DNA from: Phascolomyces articulosus
Taxonomy: Eukaryota; Mucoromycota; Mucoromycetes; Mucorales; Lichtheimiaceae
Assembly (NCBI GenBank): GCA_025677815.1
Contig: JAIXMP010000006.1
Coordinates: 124,001 to 188,000 of the forward strand
DNA length: 64,000 nucleotides
Reading direction: 5' to 3'
This document shows, piece after piece, positions 2,835 through 37,416 of this stretch; position 1 is the stretch's first letter; each line of letters starts with the position of its first letter. The translations under genes were made by a program, and so were the position numbers. The notes beneath the pieces were generated by a model. The model did not search any database, was not told the origin of the DNA, and was given only the letters and a program-made list of their open reading frames with translations.

Positions 2835-4300
2835 TTATTCTTCTTCCTCATCCTCCTCTTGTGGTTCCCCAGTTAACATATTCACCATATTCTCCAAATC
2901 AGAATTGTCTATAAATAATCATTTTGTTATATTAACGAGTTACCTTAATTAAAATATAAATGTTATCTTTTTCTTTTCTTATTTATTACCTGGATTCAAC
3001 TTGTGTGCTTTTTTGAATGATTCAACAGCTTCATCATACTTTTTAACAACATCATCTTCGTCATCTAATAAATTAGACTGACTCAATTGGAGCATTGCCA
3101 ACTGAAATTTATAAATTAGCATTACTATACCTGGGCACAGTTTATATTTCTTAATAGGAAAAAGTATGACTTTTATTACCAATTCCCATCCTCGAGGATA
3201 CTCTTTTTTGTTTTCTTCCTTGTAAATTTTGTTTGCATCTAACAATAACTTCTCGCTTTGTTCACACAATTCCTATAATACCATGTTAGAAATGATTTTT
3301 ATTAAAGTGATGAACTTTAGTTTTCATTTGACCCTTACATTTTGTTTTTCAACATCATCTGGAAGTAAACTTTGTTTATGTATTAAAACAGACGCTTTAA
3401 GTGCCAATAAATCTGAATCCTTTTCGTACGAAAATTGGTCAATAAATCGAATCAATGCATCTGATAACACCAAAACATGTTTATAGTGTTGCGGATGATC
3501 TAATAATTGAATATAGGAATGAAGATCATGCAATACAAATCGTGTTTCTTTTGTTGGTAAATCTTTGGTCGAAGTGAGTGCCTAAAAAATAAAAAATTGC
3601 ATAAATTTAATAAGCTTGAACACGTGTTTCTTCCGTCGCTCTTCCTCTTTATAATTACCTTTTCAATAGCATCCAGCGCTTCTTTATATAATTTTTCTTC
3701 TTCTCTCTTGATTGAATACTTTTTGAGCTGTTCTTCAGAAGGAAGTTCATCATCTTCTTCCAATTCTTCTAATAATTCTTCAAAAGCGCTGTTCAGCTTC
3801 TTGCGGATCAATTGCAACAATCCAATAGCAGATTTTGCAACAGTAAGCCAATGTTCACCCTTCATTAAAGAAGGTGATTTTTTAGCTACCCCTCGGAATA
3901 TATCAAGACCTTCTCGCAAGCTTTCTTCCACATCAATGGCTCGACCCAGTTCAACGAGACATGTTGCATATCCACTACGATCGTCTTTTGGATCTGTCTT
4001 TTCAAATTGTTCCAATGCCATGTCAAAAAGCCGGCGCACGATCTCGCTGTTGTTGTTTTGATCTGACGTTGTATTTGATTCCGCCAAGGCCATGGATAGT
4101 AGTTCTTGGGACGATGGTTCAAATGTTTGATCTTTCCCGCTTTCATCTTTGCGCGTAAAAGAGATTTCAATTTCGCCTACGTCGCATCCTTCACATTCCG
4201 GATCGTTACATTCGGGTACATGACCGTTTTTTTCTCCCGATTTAATACGTTTTGTACGAACAGAAGGGCCGGCATCTTCTTCAGCAAGGCGTTTGGACAT
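2835..4300 (-). CDS. ETT1: Ett1/Nro1 family nuclear protein (enhancer of translation termination 1)
   Basis: Five exons on the minus strand (4300-3659, 3581-3339, 3272-3180, 3101-2990, 2908-2835) encode 387 residues. The N-terminus is basic and nuclear-like (RTKRIKSG), followed by a small Cys cluster (CNDPECEGCD). A TPR-like helical body follows, including IVRRLFDMALEQFEKTD and YATCLVELGRAIDVEESL. The protein ends in a long acidic tail after NPDNSDLENMVNML. Budding-yeast Ett1 affects translation termination, and fission-yeast Nro1 regulates the prolyl dioxygenase Ofd1 in oxygen-responsive sterol signalling; which role applies here cannot be told from sequence. All junctions keep the frame. 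The gene diverges from LAS1 with 123 bp between start codons. Confidence 0.85.
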
Positions 4301-25843: not shown

Positions 25844-28800
25844 ATGTCGATGTCTACGAACCGCCAGGAACATAAAGGTCCCGGCGGCTCAAGGCTTTCG
25901 TCTAATAACCCATATAAAGAATTAGAGGAGAGAGGGGATTTCGAACCTCCTCAGGGCACTGATTCCGCCTTTTTGACATTTACTCCCAAAGAACGGAATG
26001 TCACCAGTTATGATAATAGCAACAACCCTATCAATAATAATAATAATAATAATAATGCCGGATCGCTTCGACGAAAAAATACAATGACAAAACCTGTACC
26101 TATAGAAGAGTTTGAAGCAGCATTTGAAGAACGACCCGTTTTACGACCACCTCCTATACAAGAAGAAGAACTGCCACCTGTCGATAATAATAATAATAAT
26201 AATAATAATGGCGCTGGATTTATTCATCGTCGACCATCTCGAGCTGAATCGATCACATCCCCTTCTATGGGTTTATTAGCGAATCAATCTCCTATTCCTA
26301 GTTACGATGCTACGGAGGAACATGATTATTCAGATATAACTCGATTAACAGCGCATGGCAATGGAGGTGTTGGTGAACCATCAACATCTTCAACAGCTGA
26401 TCAAGTTTCTCCCAAACGCTCTGTACGACGAAATCAATCCATTCGTAAAGTAGCGACGGTGTTAAGAAAAGTCTCTCGGCGTGTAGTGAATACTCAAAAC
26501 GACGAACGTGCACCTTTATCCCGTCATCGTTCTTCTTCCACGATACCCCTCATCCATAGTCAACATGAACATGATGATATTGCTGAAGAAGAGTCTATAC
26601 CAATGACACCTTCACCCTCCATCAAATCAGTTACCCAGTCGCTGGACGACAACAATCCTCCACAACAGTATGAAGTACGAAAAAGTAAACAACGAGGTAT
26701 CATTTTGGCTGGACGAAGCTGTGGTATCTTTGGACCTGAAAATTTGCTTCGTCGGTTATTTGCTCGTATATTACTATGGAGGTAATAGAATACATATTTT
26801 ATATATTGAGATATATAAAGTGTCAAGAAATTTTTATTCATATGACTTTTCTTTATTATGTACCTCCCTATAGATGGTTAGAACCATGTATGATGCTGGT
26901 TATTGCATTACATTGTGGTGTCCTTTTTGCAGTCGGTTGGGGAAATAATCCAACACCTGAACCACCAAGATATTGGGGACAAACATGGGATCAATTTGTC
27001 CTTCTTGTCATATTTATTCTTTATACGTAAAGTTATTATTTTCATTGCATATGGAGAGAGTGAGTGTGGATTTGATAAGGAGATTATGAAAAACTAAATT
27101 TCATCTATGTATAGCCTTTGGGTCCTTATGCGCATTATTGTCTATGGGTTCCTATTTTCTCCAAAACAGACTAGTGGCGAAGACTCCGAGACCCCGCCAC
27201 CTCCTTTAGCCTTTATGCGTCACAGTTGGAATCGCATGGATTTGATATCGGTTGTATGTTATTATGTAGATCTTGGTTTAACCAGTGAAGGTCAAATCTT
27301 GATTGATGATACAAGGCGCATATTGGTATTTAAAGCGTTATCTACCTTGATTCTTCTTCGATTACTTCTTATAACCAATGGCAATCGGATTATTCTACAA
27401 AGTTTGAAAAAGGCTGGCCCATTATTGGTGACTGTCTCGACATTTGTTTTGTTCTTTTTTGTTATTTTAGCGTAAGTACTATTTTTTTTAAAGAGAGAGA
27501 GAGTATATCTAAATTAATTTTTTTTTTTTTTACTGTAGTATTATCGGTGTACAGTCTTTTAAGGGATCCTTTTTACGTCATTGTGTTTGGACAGGTAAAA
27601 AAAAAAAAAAAAAGAGAGAGAGAAAGAGAGAAAGAGACATCGGACTCATTCCACCCATTTTTCTACCGTTCATTTAAACATAAATAAATAAATAAAAATT
27701 GGTGTATAGATCCGGATGATCCAGAAAATATACAAGTTATGGAACAATATTGTGGTGGTTATGTACAAGGTGGTATTGAAAAACCATATCTTCGTCTGGA
27801 TGGCAGCGAAGGTCCATGGTCAAAAGGCTTTATTTGTGAAGAAGGCCTTGTTTGTAAGGTAATGGAATACCAATGAAATGTGATCAAGTAATCGAGGCAT
27901 TTTCTCATGGTGTTGTTAATTATATAGGAAACCGAAAATCCTTCTGGTGGAACAGTCAGCTTTGATAATATTTTTAGTTCCATGTTGATTGTTGTAATTA
28001 TTGCAGGAAGTAAGTCATTTTTATCTAGAATAGAAAAGCAAAATTTTCTTCTTTACTCATATTCTCCCATCTTTCACATAGATCAAACATGGACAGAACC
28101 CATGTACAATATGATGGATGCCGAATATTTCATTGTGTGCCTTTATTTTATCATCAGTGTGGTTATTATGAATTATTGGTTAATTAACTTGTTTGTTGCT
28201 GTGATCAACGAAATGTTTGCCAAAGTTCGAGAAGATTCTCAACATTCTGCATTTACATCATTGAGGTAAATGATAAAAAAAAAAGAACGTGGGAAAATTT
28301 ATGCTCTATATATACTAAACTGAGCAACATGGATCATACATCAACTAACATAACATGCTATTAATTCATTATATTTAGTAAAAAACAAATGCTAGGTGAT
28401 GGTGCAGAGGGATGGTCAATTGGTCAAGGAGCAAAGAAGAAACAAAAAAATAATCGATCCCTTCTTGTTGAATTTGTGAAGTTGACGCGACCTTTTTGGA
28501 CCTTATTGGTGATTGCGGATTTAATTGTCATGGGATGGAAGAATAATGACATGTCAGATGAATATTTAACTTATATTGGTAACTACCATATACTTTTTTT
28601 TTTTAAAAAAAAAAATGATTATTCTACGGGGATAAAATAAACTGAATAAAATACTTATTGATTCATGTCATTCCTATAGATCGCGCTGAACTTGGTTTTT
28701 CCCTTGCATTTTTACTTGAAATCATCATTCGATTTGCAAGTTATTGGCCACGATGGCGCCCCTTTTTTATTTCCAAAGCCAATAGAATGGACTTATTTAT

Positions 28801-31456
28801 TGCTATTATTACCTGCATTATTCAAATTCCTCCCATTCACGATAATCGAGCTGCTTATGCATGGCTGACAGGATTCCAAGTGTTACGTATTTATCGAGTA
28901 GTTGTCATATTTCCACGTGTGAGAACTTTGGGTGTAAGTTTTTATTTTTTTTTATTTTTTGATTCGATAAATCAATAAGATGGATGTGGATTGTTTGGAT
29001 ATTCATATAGAATGCTATATATAGTTACGTGTACTCGGTAGTGTCTGGGGTCTGTTCAACTTGGTGTTCTTTATTGTCCTGGCCACCTTATTTGGTGCGA
29101 TTATGGTAAGCAAATGATGAGCATATAAGCATGATGATGATTAATTTCATTTTAGGAAACTTACTTGTAAATACTAAACTGACTCTTTTTCTTTACATTA
29201 GTCGTTTCAATTGTTTGAAGGATTACTTAATGATAGTGAAGATGGTATGCGCTTCTTTTCAATTTACAATTCCTTTGCCGCTTTGAATCAGGTAAATTAT
29301 TGCTTATCAAAAAACCCATATATTTTATTTTGTTTCTATTATCTAATGCAATTGTTTATTAGCTCTTTTCTGGTGAAGATTGGACTACGGTATTATATGC
29401 AACCATGGAAGCAGGTGCACCTTCAAATACGGCTGCACTCCATGCCATCTTTCTTGTCCTTTGGTTCCTCTTTTCCAACTGTAAGTCATCTACTGACGAG
29501 ATGGATGAATAGAATAATCCACTTTTTTTTGAGCTTCAAGGATAAAACGAAAAAAAAAACTAACACGCCTACCTATCTTAGTTATCCTGGTCAATATGTT
29601 TATTGCTGTATTAATGGAAAATTTCGAAACGGCTGAAGAACAAAAACGACAATTACAAATTCAACAATTTATCAACAAAACAGAACATGTAGTCGACAGT
29701 GATCCTGTCGCAAGTCGATGGAATATTTATCGATACTTTCGTCCTCATCCCAAAAGTGCCAATGTTGGCAATATGCCAGCTAATTTGGTGTTACCTACCA
29801 AAAAGAACACTATGCGAGAATTCATGCATGACGACGGTATTTATTTAGCTCACCATACACAACAAGACGAAGACGAGGCTCACACTGATGAATTTGGAGA
29901 ACAAGCGGATACCCATCGATTTTCACGTGTACGTCAATTTTTTGGTACCATCTTCCATAAACCACAAAAAGAACCGCTTGCTCTCAAGAGTGCGACACGC
30001 AAGAGTATGCATTTAGACGATCGAAATCCATTGGATCAGTTTCATACGTTTTATGATACACGCAAAGGAGAGCAAAATCAACCAATGCGTAATTTGATTC
30101 AATCTTCCTCTGTGGGTAAAGATGCTACAGCATTGGAATTGGCAGAAGCGTATTTGTATGATGCAGAGGAAAGAAAACTGTTGCGACAAGAATTTATTGC
30201 TGCTCATCCTACGTATGATAAATCATTGTATTTGTTTACACCCAACAATCGATTCCGTCGTTGGTGTCAAATGCTTGTGCCTCCCAGTCGTGGTGAACGT
30301 TTTTTTGGTGCACAACCCAATTTGGTGGCCAGTTGGGTCTTTTTCACTATTATCTGTTGCTCTGTTTTAACGACGGTCGTGTTGACCATTTGCAATTCAC
30401 CTGTTTACCAGTTTGAACATCGGGACGATATCAGCCATTTACGTATCTATGATTATTTGGATTATACTTTTACGTTTATTTTTACTATTGAATTTATTAT
30501 CAAAGTGGTCGCCGATGGTTTCTTTATGACCCCCAATGCGTATTTGCTCAATGGATGGAACATATTGGATTCGTTTGTCCTGATATCCTTGTACATGTCC
30601 AATTTCGGTGACTTTTCAAATTCCAGTGGTGTCGAACGTGCCTTCCGTGCCTTCAAAGCCCTTCGAGCCTTACGTCTTATCAATTTACTCAAACCTGCTC
30701 GTGAAATGTTTACTGTCATCTTGGTGAAAGGCCTTCCTCATATTTTTGATGCCATGTGTTTGTGTCTCTTTTTGATCATTCCTTTTGCTCTTTACGGCCA
30801 AAACCTGTTCCAAGGTCTCTTTTATGCCTGCAGTGATGATGATAACATTGCTATCCCCAACAAAGCCATGTGTGTGTATGAAGGACTTCAAGGCATGCAA
30901 GAACCTATGCCTGAAGATGCCGATATCTTTCGACCACGTATCTGGGAAAATCCGTATGTCTATAGCTTTGATTCCTTTTGGCAAGGCCTCCTGGTCTTGG
31001 TAGAAATTGCTAGTGGAGAAGGATGGGTTGATGTCCTTGAAGTCAGTATGAACATTGTGGGGAAAGATCAAAGTCCAGAGCAAGATGCAAGTCAATTATC
31101 AGGTATCTTTTTTATGGTCTATAATCTTGTGGGTTCTATCTTGGTTATTTCGCTGTTCTTGGGTGTGGTACTGGAGAACTTTTCTCGAAGAAACGGAACA
31201 GCTTATTTAACGGCTGAACAACGTCGATGGCTTGATTTGAAAAAACTGTTGGGCCGAATGCGGCCCGCAAAACGACCCAAGGAAATACCGACAAGTCCTA
31301 TCAGGAAATGGTGCTTTGATCGTATTGTAGACAAACGTGGCCGGTTTTATAAGTTTATGACGGTGGTGATTGCATTGAACATTTTGTTTTTATGTACTGA
31401 GTTTGACCGGGATGATGAATATGTGGGTTGGATAACTGCTAGAAGTAAGTAATAAC

Positions 31457-31531
<75 letters not shown>

Positions 31532-34077
31532 GAGAATGAAAGCTGTAGATCAAAAGATTTTTTTATGAAAGAGAAAAAAAAGGAGGGAGAATATGTTCAC
31601 TGACAAGATCATATAATCATAGCCTATGTGTTTTTCGGATTTATTTGTATCTATTGGATGGAAATTACCATCAAACTGCTTGCCCTCGGATGGAACTCGT
31701 TCCGACGTAATTTATGGAATGTCTATGACTTAATCGCGGTTTCTGGCAGTACGATTACAACGATATTTCAATTTGGAACCAGTATTCAACAAGTCAGTGT
31801 AGAAGCACAAAAACTATTCATGACAGCACTCTGCTTTAAACTTGTCCAACGAAGTGATAGTTTGAATCAATTATTTACTATTATTGCGCAAGTATTATGA
31901 TTTCTTTCTTCCAATTTCATTATGGTGCATGATGATGATGGGAAAAAAGTGACCAAACAATAAGCTAATTATATATATATATATATCATCCTATTTATAT
32001 AGCGCATCCGCCTATCAAATTCTGAATGTATTTTTGGTATGGTTTGTGGTTATGACAACGTATGCGATCATGTTTATGGAGATTTTTGGGTTGACTAAAT
32101 ATGGTAGCCAAGCAACAACCGAGCATGTCAATTTCCGTTCCTATGCCAATACCATGATCATGCTTGTGCGTTTTTCAACGGGTGAAGCATGGAATACAGT
32201 CATGCATGATTTCACAGTAGAAGCTCCTGAATGTGTGGCAGCTAGTAATTACCTTGACTCGGATTGTGGTTCAGTCAGTTGGGCCTATTTCTTGTTTTTG
32301 TCCTACAATATCATTTCCATGTACATATTTACGGCGATCTTTGTGGCTGTGGTGGCAGATAACTTTTCCTATGTGTATCAAATTGCCTCAAATTTCTCAC
32401 TTGTCAACCGAGATGAAATCAGAAAATATCCTTTTTTTTATTATTACTATATTTTTAAAATAGAGATGTGGATAGATATTTTTGAGTATAGACTAATTTT
32501 AGAAGAAAGATGGAAGAATCAAAAACAATCTTTAACTCTTAGATCTCTCTTGTTTGTTATCGGTCCATTACGTTCAAGAAGGCTTGGGCTGATTTTGATA
32601 CCGATCGATCCGGTTATCTCGATCCAAGAAATTATATTGGTTTTTGGAGAGTAAGTTATTTATTTATTTATTTACTATCTTATCCACGCCTCCGTTCTCG
32701 TTTCCATCCAACCCCATCCATTAGTCTCCCCCTCCCCCCCCCAAAGATTATTTCTTTATAGTATAAATTGAATGATATAAAAAATAACTCGTGATGGTTT
32801 ATAATATATATATAGCAATTAGGTGGTGTCTTCCGTACATGTATTTATGAACCGGAACATTCGTATAAGAATCTTTCATCACAATGTGCATTAGATGAGA
32901 GACTTGTAGATCCACGGGAAGGTGTCTATCGTATTCGTGTGGATCTTCGAGCTCTTAAAAGAAAATTGAATGAAATTGATCGAACCGTGATTCATCAACG
33001 TAAACAAGATCTCGACATGCTTTATTGGGTAAACAAACAATTTCTACTTTTTATATATCTTTAGGATGATGTTCTTTAATAGAAAACTCACTGAATTTTT
33101 TTATAATAACTAGGAAGCGGCATTAATGGAAGGATCCAAAGGAGTATCATTTAATCAAATGTTACTCATGATTGCACGTCGTAAACTGATTATCCCTGAA
33201 AATGCATTACTGTAAGTTTACTTTTTAAAATGAACTGTTTTTAGAGAGAGAAAATTCTGTATGTTTGTTTTATTTTTATTCATCCATGTCTGAATACATC
33301 TATTTTTTAGTATTGAAGAATTATTGAGTAATCGAAAACGTGAAGATGTTGTACGCACTTTAATCAAAATTGATCGAGTGAAAGGAATGATTGAAACTAT
33401 TGCTTTACGGAAAAAGTTTCTTCGACATTTGGAAAATAAAAAACAACAAGCTGAAGCAATGGAACGAAATCAACATCATTCCCATAATTGTAAGTGCTTT
33501 TTTTTAAATCATTTATTATGATTTGACATATGACCATTTATTCCCATACATGAAAATGTACTTATTGTTTATTTGTTATTTATTGCCAAGCAGTGCCGTC
33601 AATTGTAGTGGATCAACACCGCTTATCTCGACCAGTACATTTGATGAATCTTTATTCTGCACCCGCAACACCTATCACACCTACCAGTGGCCAATTTCAT
33701 GATGATAACGGATCAATTGTATCAGGAGGCGATCTGTAAATATTGTTATTTGTTTATTTATTTTTTTCGGAAACAAGAAAAAGTTTATTTAATTTCCCAT
33801 TTTTTAATTTTATATCTTATTAGGAGAAGTCCAACATTTGATCGAGGAGGAGGTGGCCATGTGGACTCTTATTATTTTGATCCAGAACCAGGTGCTCGAG
33901 ACTCTAATAGTCGTCGAAATAGTGGAGCCGACGATTCTTCAGGACAACGCGATGTTTGGCAAGGTAACGTGAATCCTTTTTTTTTGGTGTATACATTGAT
34001 TGATATATGTAGCATAATGTGTACTGATGATAATAATATTTATTTTAGATATGCTTCAAAGAGAATTAAGGGATTAA
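25844..34077 (+). CDS. CCH1: Cch1 voltage-gated-type calcium channel alpha subunit
   Basis: Twenty-two exons encode 2030 residues, like yeast Cch1. Exons: 25844-26781, 26874-27026, 27115-27471, 27539-27594, 27710-27858, 27928-28009, 28082-28265, 28379-28578, 28680-28933, 29025-29105, 29202-29291, 29363-29480, 29582-31444, 31623-31887, 32003-32425, 32572-32650, 32816-33028, 33114-33211, 33311-33489, 33594-33735, 33824-33963, 34049-34077. A 300-residue disordered Asn/Ser-rich N-terminus precedes four six-helix repeats. Pore residues are Asn579 (IIAGNQTW), Glu853 (SGEDW), Glu1367 (SGEGW) and Glu1658 (STGEAW). After IVS6 (AVVADNFSYVYQ) comes an EF-hand-like loop, DTDRSGYLDPRN. With Mid1, Cch1 forms the plasma-membrane high-affinity Ca2+ influx system used under stress and low calcium. 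Exon 14 ends at a GC donor. The intron after residue 1737 is best read as AT-AC, U12-type. Confidence 0.93.
31460..31525. repeat. GA dinucleotide microsatellite inside a CCH1 intron
   Basis: About 33 uninterrupted GA units start 15 bp after the GTAAGT donor of the intron at 31445-31622. On the sense strand the tract is purine-only. It is the longest simple repeat in the window. Confidence 0.95.
32426..32571 (+). other. Probable U12-type AT-AC intron in CCH1
   Basis: The intron begins ATATCCTTT, a full match to the U12 5' splice site, and ends CCATTAC. Removing it joins AA to G (Lys1738) and gives RDEIRKFKKAWADFDTD, which fits the conserved block after IVS6 in Cch1 proteins. A branch-site-like TCTTTAAC lies at 32529-32536, 36 bases from the 3' end (longer than usual). 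A weaker TTTGTTATC lies 12 bases from the end. No GT-AG pair restores the block. Confidence 0.75.
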
Positions 34078-34444: not shown

Positions 34445-37416
34445 ATGGCGTTATTTGAGCCTACCTCCCAATGGCACGAGATTGAATTACCCGATTTAAC
34501 CTTCGACAAAAACTTGGACAAGGATCTTTCAATTGAAAAGATTGCTGAAAAGAAAAGTTATGCCAAAAGTTTACTGAAACAAGAAAATGAAAAGGTGGAC
34601 ATGACCTCTCGTCTCTCGACCAGCGATCGTAACTTTGTATCCAACATTATGACGTCCGGTACTTTAAGCGATCGTGTCTCTGCCTTGACATTGTTGATTC
34701 AAGAATCACCTTTACATAGTTTAAAGACATTGGATACCATGTTGACCATGACAAAGAAAAAAGGTCGACAAGAAGCCGTTATGGCTTTGCAAAGTTTAAA
34801 GGATTTGTTTGCTGGTTCCGTCCTTCCGGATCGTAAACTCATTTATTTTGCCGATCGACCATTGGGTTGTTCGGGTGTAGACGATCGTCATTTACTCTTG
34901 TGGTATTTTGAAGATCATTTGAAAAAGTTTTATTTCCAAGTAGTGCAACAAATTGAGGTAATGCTTTTTATAGATATATATATATATATATATATATAAA
35001 CAGAAAATCCAGTGACTTTGGATGGATGATGATAACGAACCACTCTTTCTCACTCTCCCTATACCATTTTTATATATATTAGGCACTTTCCCATGATCCC
35101 TTAGTTCACGTGCGTGATAATATGGTGCGATGTATCCACGATCTTTTATCCAGCAAACCCGAACAAGAACAAAATTTATTGAAGTTATTAGTCAACAAAT
35201 TAGGTGATAGTGAAAACAAAGTCGCCAGTCGAGCTTCTCAAATGTTGGTCGACCTTTTAATCGCACATCCTGGCATGAAAATGATCGTGGTGCGAGAAAT
35301 CGAACAATTATTATTACGTCCTAATACACCAGAACGCGCTCAATATTATTCCCTGATTACATTGAACCAAACCATTCTTACAGCCAAAGAAAGTGATGTC
35401 GCCAACAAGTTGATTGAAATTTATTTTGTCTCTTTTCGACGTATTCTTAAATTAACAGAAGAAGAGGAAGAAAAACAACTTAATAGTGATGATGAAGAAC
35501 AAGAAAAAGAAGGAAAGGACAAGAAAAAATCCAAAAAACAACAACAAAAAGGCAAGAAGGGCGGTAAAAAGGGTAAAAAGGGAAATCAGAAAAAATCATC
35601 CGATAATAATGATACTGGATTGGATGTGGATGAACTTCAAGTAAAAATGGTGGGTGCTATTCTGACGGGTGTCAATCGTGCTTTTCATTTTGCAAAGATG
35701 GCTGATGAGACGTAAGTATATCAACTATAACCATACGCTTGGTTTTTTTTTTTTTTTTGTGATTCATTTTGTTGTTTATTGTTGATTTGCATATATTTTT
35801 TAATTTCATTGTTATCTAAAACTCACACCACTTTATGAAATCCACGTGTATTTAGTGTTGAGAAGCATCTGGAAATTCTGTTCAAGATCACACATGCAGG
35901 CAAATTCTATACAGCCGTCCAGGCCCTCTCATTAATTTTTACCATTTCTTTGGCCAAACAAACTGTTTCAGATCGATTCTACCGAACATTGTATGAATCC
36001 ATGTTGGATAATCGATTATTGATTACTTCGAAACAAACACAATATTTGAATTTATTATTCAAGGCCGTACGTGCGGATGCTGATATGAGGCGTGTCAAGG
36101 CATTTGTGAAACGTATGATTCAAATTGCAAGTCATCATCAGCCACCTTTTATTTGTGGTTTACTTTATTTATTGAATCAGGTAAAAAGATCCTTTGTTGT
36201 TGATGCGATGTTCATTTTATTGATCCATCTTGATTTTTGACACACGTATTTCATATATGTATACTAATCAAAAGAATAATCCATTGGTCTTATCTATTAT
36301 TCCTTAGTTATTGATTTCAAAACCTGCATTACGTACCATGTTAACTACCCCTGAAGAAGACGAAGAAGAAGAACATTTTGTGGATGCTCCCTCTTCTGAT
36401 GAAGATGAAGAAGATACAGAAAAGAAAAATACACCAAAGAAGAACCAAACTACACTATATGATGGTCGGAAACGTGACCCTCGATTTAGTAATGCAGAAA
36501 CAAGTTGTCTGTGGGAACTAGTAAGTAAAAAACAAGGGATTTTTCTTGTTTTTGGGATATAGGATAGGATAGTAAAACGGTTCTTTTTTTGGGGGAAAGG
36601 ATGAGAGAATGGGGAAATGGAACAAAAAAAGAGAATCGAATGGGAGTTGAATTTTTTTGTTCTTTCCTCCTTTCTTTCTCGCGTATAAATATCACTGTAT
36701 TATTGTTTACATATGAGTAAAAATACTGACTCCAAAAAAAACATGGGCTAAATAAATAGATACCGTTCCGAAAGCACTACCATCCCACAGTGGCGTTTTA
36801 TGCCGAACAATTGTTCACGGGAGAAAAGATTGAAGGCGAACCTGACATGCACAATAATACATTGATTCATTTCCTTGATCGATTTGTTTATCGTAATCCC
36901 AAGAAGAAAACAGGTACACGTGGCAAGTCCATTATGCAACCTTTAGCGGGTCGCCAAGATGGAGGTATAATGATGACACGTGGAAACGTAGACGAAATCA
37001 ATACAACACTCGTCAATTCTGTTGAATTTTGGCGAAAGAAGATTGAACAAGTCCCAGTGGATGAAATCTTTTTCCATAAATATTTTAAACAAAAACGAGA
37101 AGGTGAACCGATGGAAGAAGAACTGAATCGATCCCAGAAACGTAGTAAATTGGAACAGGATGAAGAAGAAGGAGCCTTGTCTGATCATGATGGTGGTATG
37201 GATGAAGATGAAGTATGGCGAGCCATGACTTCAAGTATACCGGGAGGATTAGACGATGATGATATAGATGAGGATGAAGATGATTTTGATGATGAAATGC
37301 GTCAATTATTATTAGACGAAGACGATGATTTAAATGATGATAGTGAAGATAATGATAATGATAGTGATATGGGAAGTGTAGAGATGATCGAAGCGCCTCT
37401 TTCTGATTCCGAGTAA
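34445..37416 (+). CDS. MAK21: Mak21/Noc1 (CEBPZ) 60S ribosome-biogenesis factor
   Basis: Five exons (34445-34957, 35083-35711, 35856-36180, 36308-36520, 36760-37416) encode 778 residues, shorter than yeast Mak21 mainly in the terminal extensions. The N-terminal HEAT-like half includes SDRVSALTLLIQESPLHSLK and YFADRPLG. A Lys-rich insert lies near residues 355-390 (KKGGKKGKKG). The CBF/Mak21 domain follows, with KQTQYLNLLFKAVRADADMR and PFICGLLYLLNQLLISKP, then YDGRKRDPRFSNAETSCLWE, the HYHPTVAFYAEQL block and FLDRFVYRNPK. The tail is strongly acidic (long Asp/Glu runs). Noc1 with Noc2 carries early pre-60S particles in the nucleolus; the role here is inferred from this orthology. It sits in tandem behind CCH1, with no sign of a shared transcript. 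Confidence 0.92.

Follow-up and report, generated by a model that had tools for sequence, protein, structure and literature searches.

The calcium-channel gene CCH1 of the mucoralean fungus Phascolomyces articulosus (Lichtheimiaceae) very probably contains a U12-type AT-AC intron. This intron, the fifteenth of the gene, occupies 146 bases (32426..32571 on the + strand, phase 2) of the window, by which we mean the whole stretch of 64,000 nucleotides that was analysed. Taken as a whole, a U12-type AT-AC intron is the best explanation of a splice test, of a deposited protein that is identical across the junction, of minor-spliceosome snRNAs encoded in the genome, of the pairing between these RNAs and the donor and of the scars that the same donor appears to have left in the predicted proteins of relatives; the original prediction of such an intron in CCH1 has thus been borne out. 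The case is built on the observed sequence, reading frame, gene model, snRNA genes and paralog introns, from which we infer that the minor spliceosome removes the intron and which of its bases serve as the branch site. In the proposed mechanism U11 would pair with ATATCCTTTTT and U12 with the branch site, for which TCTTTAAC, 36 bases ahead of the 3' end, is the probable candidate; the donor would receive U6atac from U4atac, and the cut would fall after the AC at 32571. It is the comparison with the paralogs and the branch distance that raise the interest of intron 15 above the routine.

The AT-AC junction of CCH1

The hand-built model of CCH1 (25844..34077 on the + strand) comprises 22 exons and 21 introns, 19 of them GT-AG, one GC-AG and one AT-AC, and encodes 2030 residues in a single frame that is open up to its terminal stop. 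The product includes four stretches of the Ion_trans domain (PF00520, E 4.9e-147), and among the best 120 of 164 matches in a protein search, names such as calcium channel/CCH1 or ion transport protein predominate; the gene thus has both the four ion-transport domains and the similarity to fungal CCH1 expected of this channel. The top match, P0001, is a predicted protein of Phascolomyces articulosus itself, which does not include the last 55 residues of our model and is identical to it over residues 1-1975, the junction included, so that the deposited predicted gene model already has the AT-AC join. An error in the assembly or in the sequence, or decay of the gene, has a negligible probability: we found no point in its support, and against it stand the 2030 residues read in one frame across 21 introns, the presence of the same protein in the database and the same donor scar in relatives.

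Intron 15 interrupts the coding sequence after residue 1738, behind the fourth Ion_trans stretch, in the context ...GATGAAATCAGAAA/ATATCCTTTTTTTT...CGGTCCATTAC/GTTCAAGAAGGC...; its last bases are GGTCCATTAC, and the joined exon flanks give RDEIRKFKKAWADFDTD. The original prediction had described an exact minor-spliceosome donor, an AC at the 3' end and a join that restores a conserved block after the last pore helix. All of this agrees with the sequence, and the restored VNRDEIRK is kept in many relatives. The 5' splice site ATATCCTTT (32426..32434) corresponds in full to the U12-type donor (A/G)TATCCTT(T), and the 3' splice site (32570..32571) is the sole AC from the candidate branch A to the intron end; the termini at this real exon junction are one of the two pairs, AT-AC and GT-AG, that characterise the class. 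By itself the donor word is nothing unusual in a window as AT-rich as this one: ATATCCTT occurs six times on the + strand and not at all on the - strand, where about 2.1 occurrences per strand are expected, and ATATCCTTT occurs twice on the + strand where about 0.8 are expected. It is the placement of the donor that carries the case.

This placement was evaluated by scoring all open in-frame pairs of splice sites within 32370-32620 (n = 3299) against 15 relatives. Three registers of the intron 15 junction tie as the best of the 3299 with a score of 168.2; their termini are AT-AC, TA-CG and AT-GT, and only AT-AC is a recognised combination. The chance of encountering ATATCCTT together with AC at any of three registers of equal score is about 5e-6 under a first-order model. 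The references, 16 of which had been chosen for an intact-looking junction before one was lost in the pattern match, were picked in such a way that the test shows that no GT-AG pair yields the conserved block, not that the block is necessary; the need for the block follows from the gene model, the deposited protein and further evidence beyond the splice test.

The earlier claim that no GT exists in the needed position is correct as far as the junction itself is concerned, but a frame-keeping GT-AG pair does exist at 32403-32542, the use of which would replace the conserved VNRDEIRK with ISLVCYRSIT. It is the best of the GT-AG pairs and reaches a score of 117.8 against 168.2, its donor GTCAAC is poor, the counterparts of VNRDEIRK are coding in both paralogs, and the deposited protein P0001 follows the AT-AC join instead. 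Four predicted proteins (P0007, P0013 from Phycomyces, P0018 and P0024) do omit ten residues, starting with VNRDEIRK, just as a forced GT-AG intron would give. On balance we regard splicing of CCH1 at 32403-32542 as extremely improbable, and the AT-AC intron remains the preferred reading.

Retention of intron 15 would shift the frame and terminate translation at 32654, ahead of the C-terminal EF-hand-like block, the bases of the intron themselves being open in the reading frame. Since minor introns have been described as slow and regulated (PMC3728624), intron 15 might be a putative off switch, mostly retained through slow minor splicing and yielding a message for a truncated channel; we consider this unlikely, and it would in any case add a layer of regulation to the U12 identity of the intron rather than compete with it.

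Several features in the neighbourhood of intron 15 are recorded here as observations in their own right. Intron 14 (31888..32002 on the + strand, phase 2) is the GC-AG intron of the model, and its donor GCAAGT is a textbook GC-AG donor. Its place and phase match, by inspection, those of a GT-AG intron of the paralog on contig C17; it lies outside the U12 claim and shows that CCH1 also accommodates major-class donors other than GT. Intron 13 contains a long (GA)n run (31463-31525). The likeness of the next gene downstream (34449-36240) to the CCAAT-binding-factor/NOC1 type comes solely from a fused Rhizopus gene model, P0023, which holds both PF03914 and PF00520, and a Pfam search with two pieces of the downstream gene gave weak matches below the cut-off only.

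Minor-spliceosome components, branch sites and further AT-AC introns

The genome (47.4 Mb, 110 contigs) was searched with Rfam models for the snRNAs of the minor spliceosome, the original prediction having named the absence of all components of this machinery as evidence that would count against it. U11 (70.7 bits against a cut-off of 39) and U6atac (52.7 bits against 33) are clearly present, and a U4atac candidate scores 50.4 bits, just below the cut-off of 53. The U4atac and U6atac candidates lie on separate contigs (C41:366173-366296 and C25:40178-40320, respectively) and have in common an exact 15-base complement, GTCCTTATCAAGGGG, which two false matches would hardly be expected to produce. 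This complement departs in places from the pairing region of the Rfam consensus, with complementarity kept. The donor of intron 15 pairs in a run of eight, seven of them Watson-Crick, with the 5' end of U11 and likewise with U6atac, whereas the control donors of the major type in CCH1, GTAAGT and GCAAGT, form at most three Watson-Crick pairs with U11 and at most five with U6atac.

The same search returned no U12 with model RF00007 at E 0.001 or at E 10, 42 of 3936 first-look candidates being scored each time. Two core words of the human U12 gave 109 and 7 matches in the genome, compared to 176 and 13 in the reversed controls, and none of the eight loci (first word) and seven loci (second word) that were passed through Rfam proved to be U12. 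Such a miss is to be expected of the Rfam model given that the U12 of early-diverging fungi is reported to be reduced, with the third stem lost and the last stem shortened (PMC4133162); it remains a gap in the set and does not show that U12 is absent. The U11/U12-specific proteins that were also suggested as a check yielded nothing in an exon-by-exon search of the genome, a weak type of search, with PF05253 (the U11-48K finger) or with PF14968 (CCDC84/CENATAC), the latter run without a positive control.

The branch site is the weakest feature of the U12 case. The best candidate, ATCTTTAAC (32528..32536 on the + strand), matches TTCCTTRAY at seven of nine positions and is uncertain; its putative branch A at 32535 lies 36 bases upstream of the intron end, a distance which the original prediction had rightly called unusual. 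Distances of 10-20 bases, with an optimum of 11-13, are given for U12-type introns (PMC8199999). Either the minor machinery of this genome is loose, or a poorer branch site nearer to the AC is used. An AG seven bases after the candidate branch A (32541..32542) would be passed over. Splicing to this AG would break the reading frame, and an AT-AG intron ending at 32542, 29 bases short, was accordingly rejected. A hairpin bringing the branch site and the AC together was likewise discarded, as the fold of intron 15 is ordinary (z -0.59).

A weak and distant branch site would be easier for the major spliceosome to accommodate, and AT-AC termini occur in both spliceosome classes, an example of the second being intron 25 in certain genes for animal sodium channels. 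Intron 15 could thus be an AT-AC intron of this second class, which we judge to be very unlikely: its donor agrees fully with the U12 type and pairs with both U11 and U6atac, and its base at +5 is C, whereas G occupies +5 in all known AT-AC introns of the U2 type in sodium channel genes (PMC2831892). Assignment of intron 15 to the U12 type is therefore the reading that we carry forward.

Intron 15 is not the only AT-AC intron of the genome. The paralogous channel gene on contig C17 (discussed below) contains a U12-type one of 106 bases and phase 1 on the - strand (C17:12501-22400, from reverse position 3444), located in the loop between S2 and S3 of domain II; it reads ATATCCTTTTTTTTTA...TTCCCTTAACTACTACTTTTCTGTGTAAATAC with the branch site TTCCCTTAAC 23 bases from the AC, and its removal gives FWRYYRNRIDFYIAIGS and a gapless alignment at the join with P0184 and P0190. 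CCH1 of the window has no intron at this position. Two more AT-AC introns that fit a reading frame were located on C56 (79 bases, at C56:1486850) and on C79 (86 bases, from around 39262 downwards). All three have ATATCCTTTTTT donors and CCTTAAC branch sites, the latter at 17, 21 and 23 bases from the end. Genome-wide searches with strict U12-type patterns of 50-100 bases, in AT-AC/AT-AG and GT-AG versions with reversed controls, gave for the former eight listed matches in five places compared to five in the control, which is no excess, and for the latter no match compared to one in the control. By inspection three of the five AT-donor places are not intron-like, the remaining two being those on C56 and C79, and given a pattern count without excess these introns are counted by their frame rather than by their number. 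The host genes on C56 and C79 have no Pfam match, and a comparison with solved structures produced nothing better than E 0.2.

Paralogs and relatives of CCH1

A search with PF00520 identified two more loci for four-domain channels, on contigs C20 and C17, which share 28-53% identity with CCH1 over the aligned pieces and less in short ones. Both have a phase 2 intron at the codon of intron 15, and in both it is GT-AG with boundaries assigned by inspection: TTGCGCAG/GTAAATG...CAATAG/TTTCAAATAC in C20 and GAGACA/GTAGGT...TTATTAG/TTTTAAAG in C17, where the join aligns without gaps with the Mucorales proteins P0184, P0185 and P0186. The same codon and the same phase in all three genes indicate that an intron was located here before the CCH1 paralogs of this genome diverged and that its class has since changed; at this position the major spliceosome would now serve the paralogs. 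The usual direction of change is from U12 to U2, more often starting from GT-AG U12 introns, and one case of U2 to U12 is known (PMC2831892); we tentatively favour a conversion of the paralogs from U12 to U2 rather than the reverse. Two other lines of the paralog search were set aside. P0028 from Dichotomocladium, which had been used as a query, proved to be an additional copy of CCH1 and not a member of the family of these paralogs, and it was a second query that found the family of C17; matches to PF00520 on C41 and C1 showed, in a motif search, nothing like the C-terminal block of CCH1.

The relatives were judged from their predicted proteins, and the donor scars in them were read back from protein to DNA. 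Translation of AAA TAT CCT TTY would give RKYPF, and precisely this sequence is found where the gene models of P0002 (Zychaea), P0006 (Apophysomyces), P0009 (Halteromyces), P0026 (Mycotypha) and P0029 (Choanephora) appear to read into the donor, the last of these proteins ending at the read-through. P0032 (Spinellus) ends in QKISFF, which corresponds to the same donor bases in another frame. Altogether such scars (KYPF or KISFF) occur in six of the 182 proteins examined, these six coming from species of six families; since the models of six families read into the donor, intron 15 is probably old within the Mucorales.

Gene predictors appear to have damaged CCH1 at this junction in many species. 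For 28 relatives, including Umbelopsis and Calcarisporiella (P0001 and the second Dichotomocladium copy were left out), we counted gaps within eight residues of each junction, and 11 of the 28 are gapped at intron 15, compared to between 0 and 7 at each of the remaining 15 junctions in the conserved core, which extends to residue 1764. P0004 is scrambled at the intron 15 junction. Among the junctions of the poorly conserved tail of CCH1 to which this count could be applied, most have higher values: 13, 25, 26 and 15 of 28 at 33029, 33490, 33736 and 33964, respectively, but 3 at 33212. The CCH1 annotations of the Mucorales are hence in need of repair.

Minor introns of fungi and of animal channels

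U12-type AT-AC introns are the class described by Hall and Padgett. Fungi have lost almost all of their minor introns, and the loss or conversion of such introns has been argued from few cases. With one genome holding an intron once as AT-AC and twice as GT-AG, codon and phase being unchanged, the direction of change becomes testable in public Mucorales genomes. Intron 15 shares with U12-type AT-AC introns in general the ATATCCTTT donor, the AT-AC ends, the pairing with U11 and U6atac and the presence of minor snRNAs; it differs from them in its candidate branch site, which lies 36 rather than 10-20 bases from the 3' end (PMC8199999) and matches at seven of nine positions. This long distance raises the question whether the machinery of fungi is less strict.

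A U12-type intron is no first for the Mucorales. That minor introns had been reported from Mucoromycota is correct, both U12-type introns and snRNAs of the Mucorales being in print (PMC2846911; PMC4133162). Rhizopus oryzae and Phycomyces blakesleeanus have about four and about 20 U12-type introns, respectively, compared to 205 minor introns in Rhizophagus (PMC10639083), and EST-based counts of AT-AC introns are one for the former and 8-9 for the latter (PMC2846911). Both species are, like Phascolomyces, members of the Mucorales with few minor introns, and the relevant portions of these reports give the host genes without names and without a mention of CCH1. Lichtheimia corymbifera, which belongs to the same family, has U11 and U6atac type RNAs in common with our genome. 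Four of the five RNAs for AT-AC splicing are reported from Lichtheimia; U4atac was undetected there (PMC4133162), whereas here it scores 50.4 bits and includes the full complement to U6atac. By analogy, a reduced U12 such as that of Lichtheimia may explain the Rfam miss in our genome, and from Apophysomyces, too, U12 and U4atac are reported as not found (PMC5604411). The literature searched, to the extent of its searchable text, does not pair Cch1 with 'minor intron', and it pairs Cch1 with 'U12-type' or 'AT-AC' only in work on animal channels. What is new here are the GT-AG introns at the same site in two deep paralogs and the separate AT-AC intron in one of them.

The original prediction had also drawn a parallel to animal sodium and calcium channel genes and had called the fungal intron a relic or re-use of that system. 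The parallel fits as far as the spliceosome is concerned: most animal SCN and CACN1 genes carry a pair of U12-type introns (PMC2831892), and the one in S1 of domain I, common to Nav and Cav (PMC6259924; PMC3634016; PMC10120453), resides in the same superfamily of four-domain channels and is of the same class and subtype as the CCH1 intron. It does not extend to the intron itself, as intron 15 lies after S6 of domain IV and is thus not the animal intron of domain I S1 (PMC6259924), the S1 intron being the one with which it was compared. A joint reading of these data, which we put forward as doubtful, would be that four-domain channels of fungi and animals hold AT-AC introns at differing positions, as do the CCH1 paralogs, with the shared place having changed class, because such introns were repeatedly kept or gained, perhaps as slow minor splicing limits channel output; in addition, a mucoralean machine with a reduced U12 would accept branch-to-AC distances of 17 to 36 bases, beyond the animal limit.

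Finally, intron 1 of CCH1 (26782-26873, GT-AG, phase 2) is situated at the start of S1 of domain I, near the site of the animal Nav/Cav U12-type intron, a likeness that is drawn by region.
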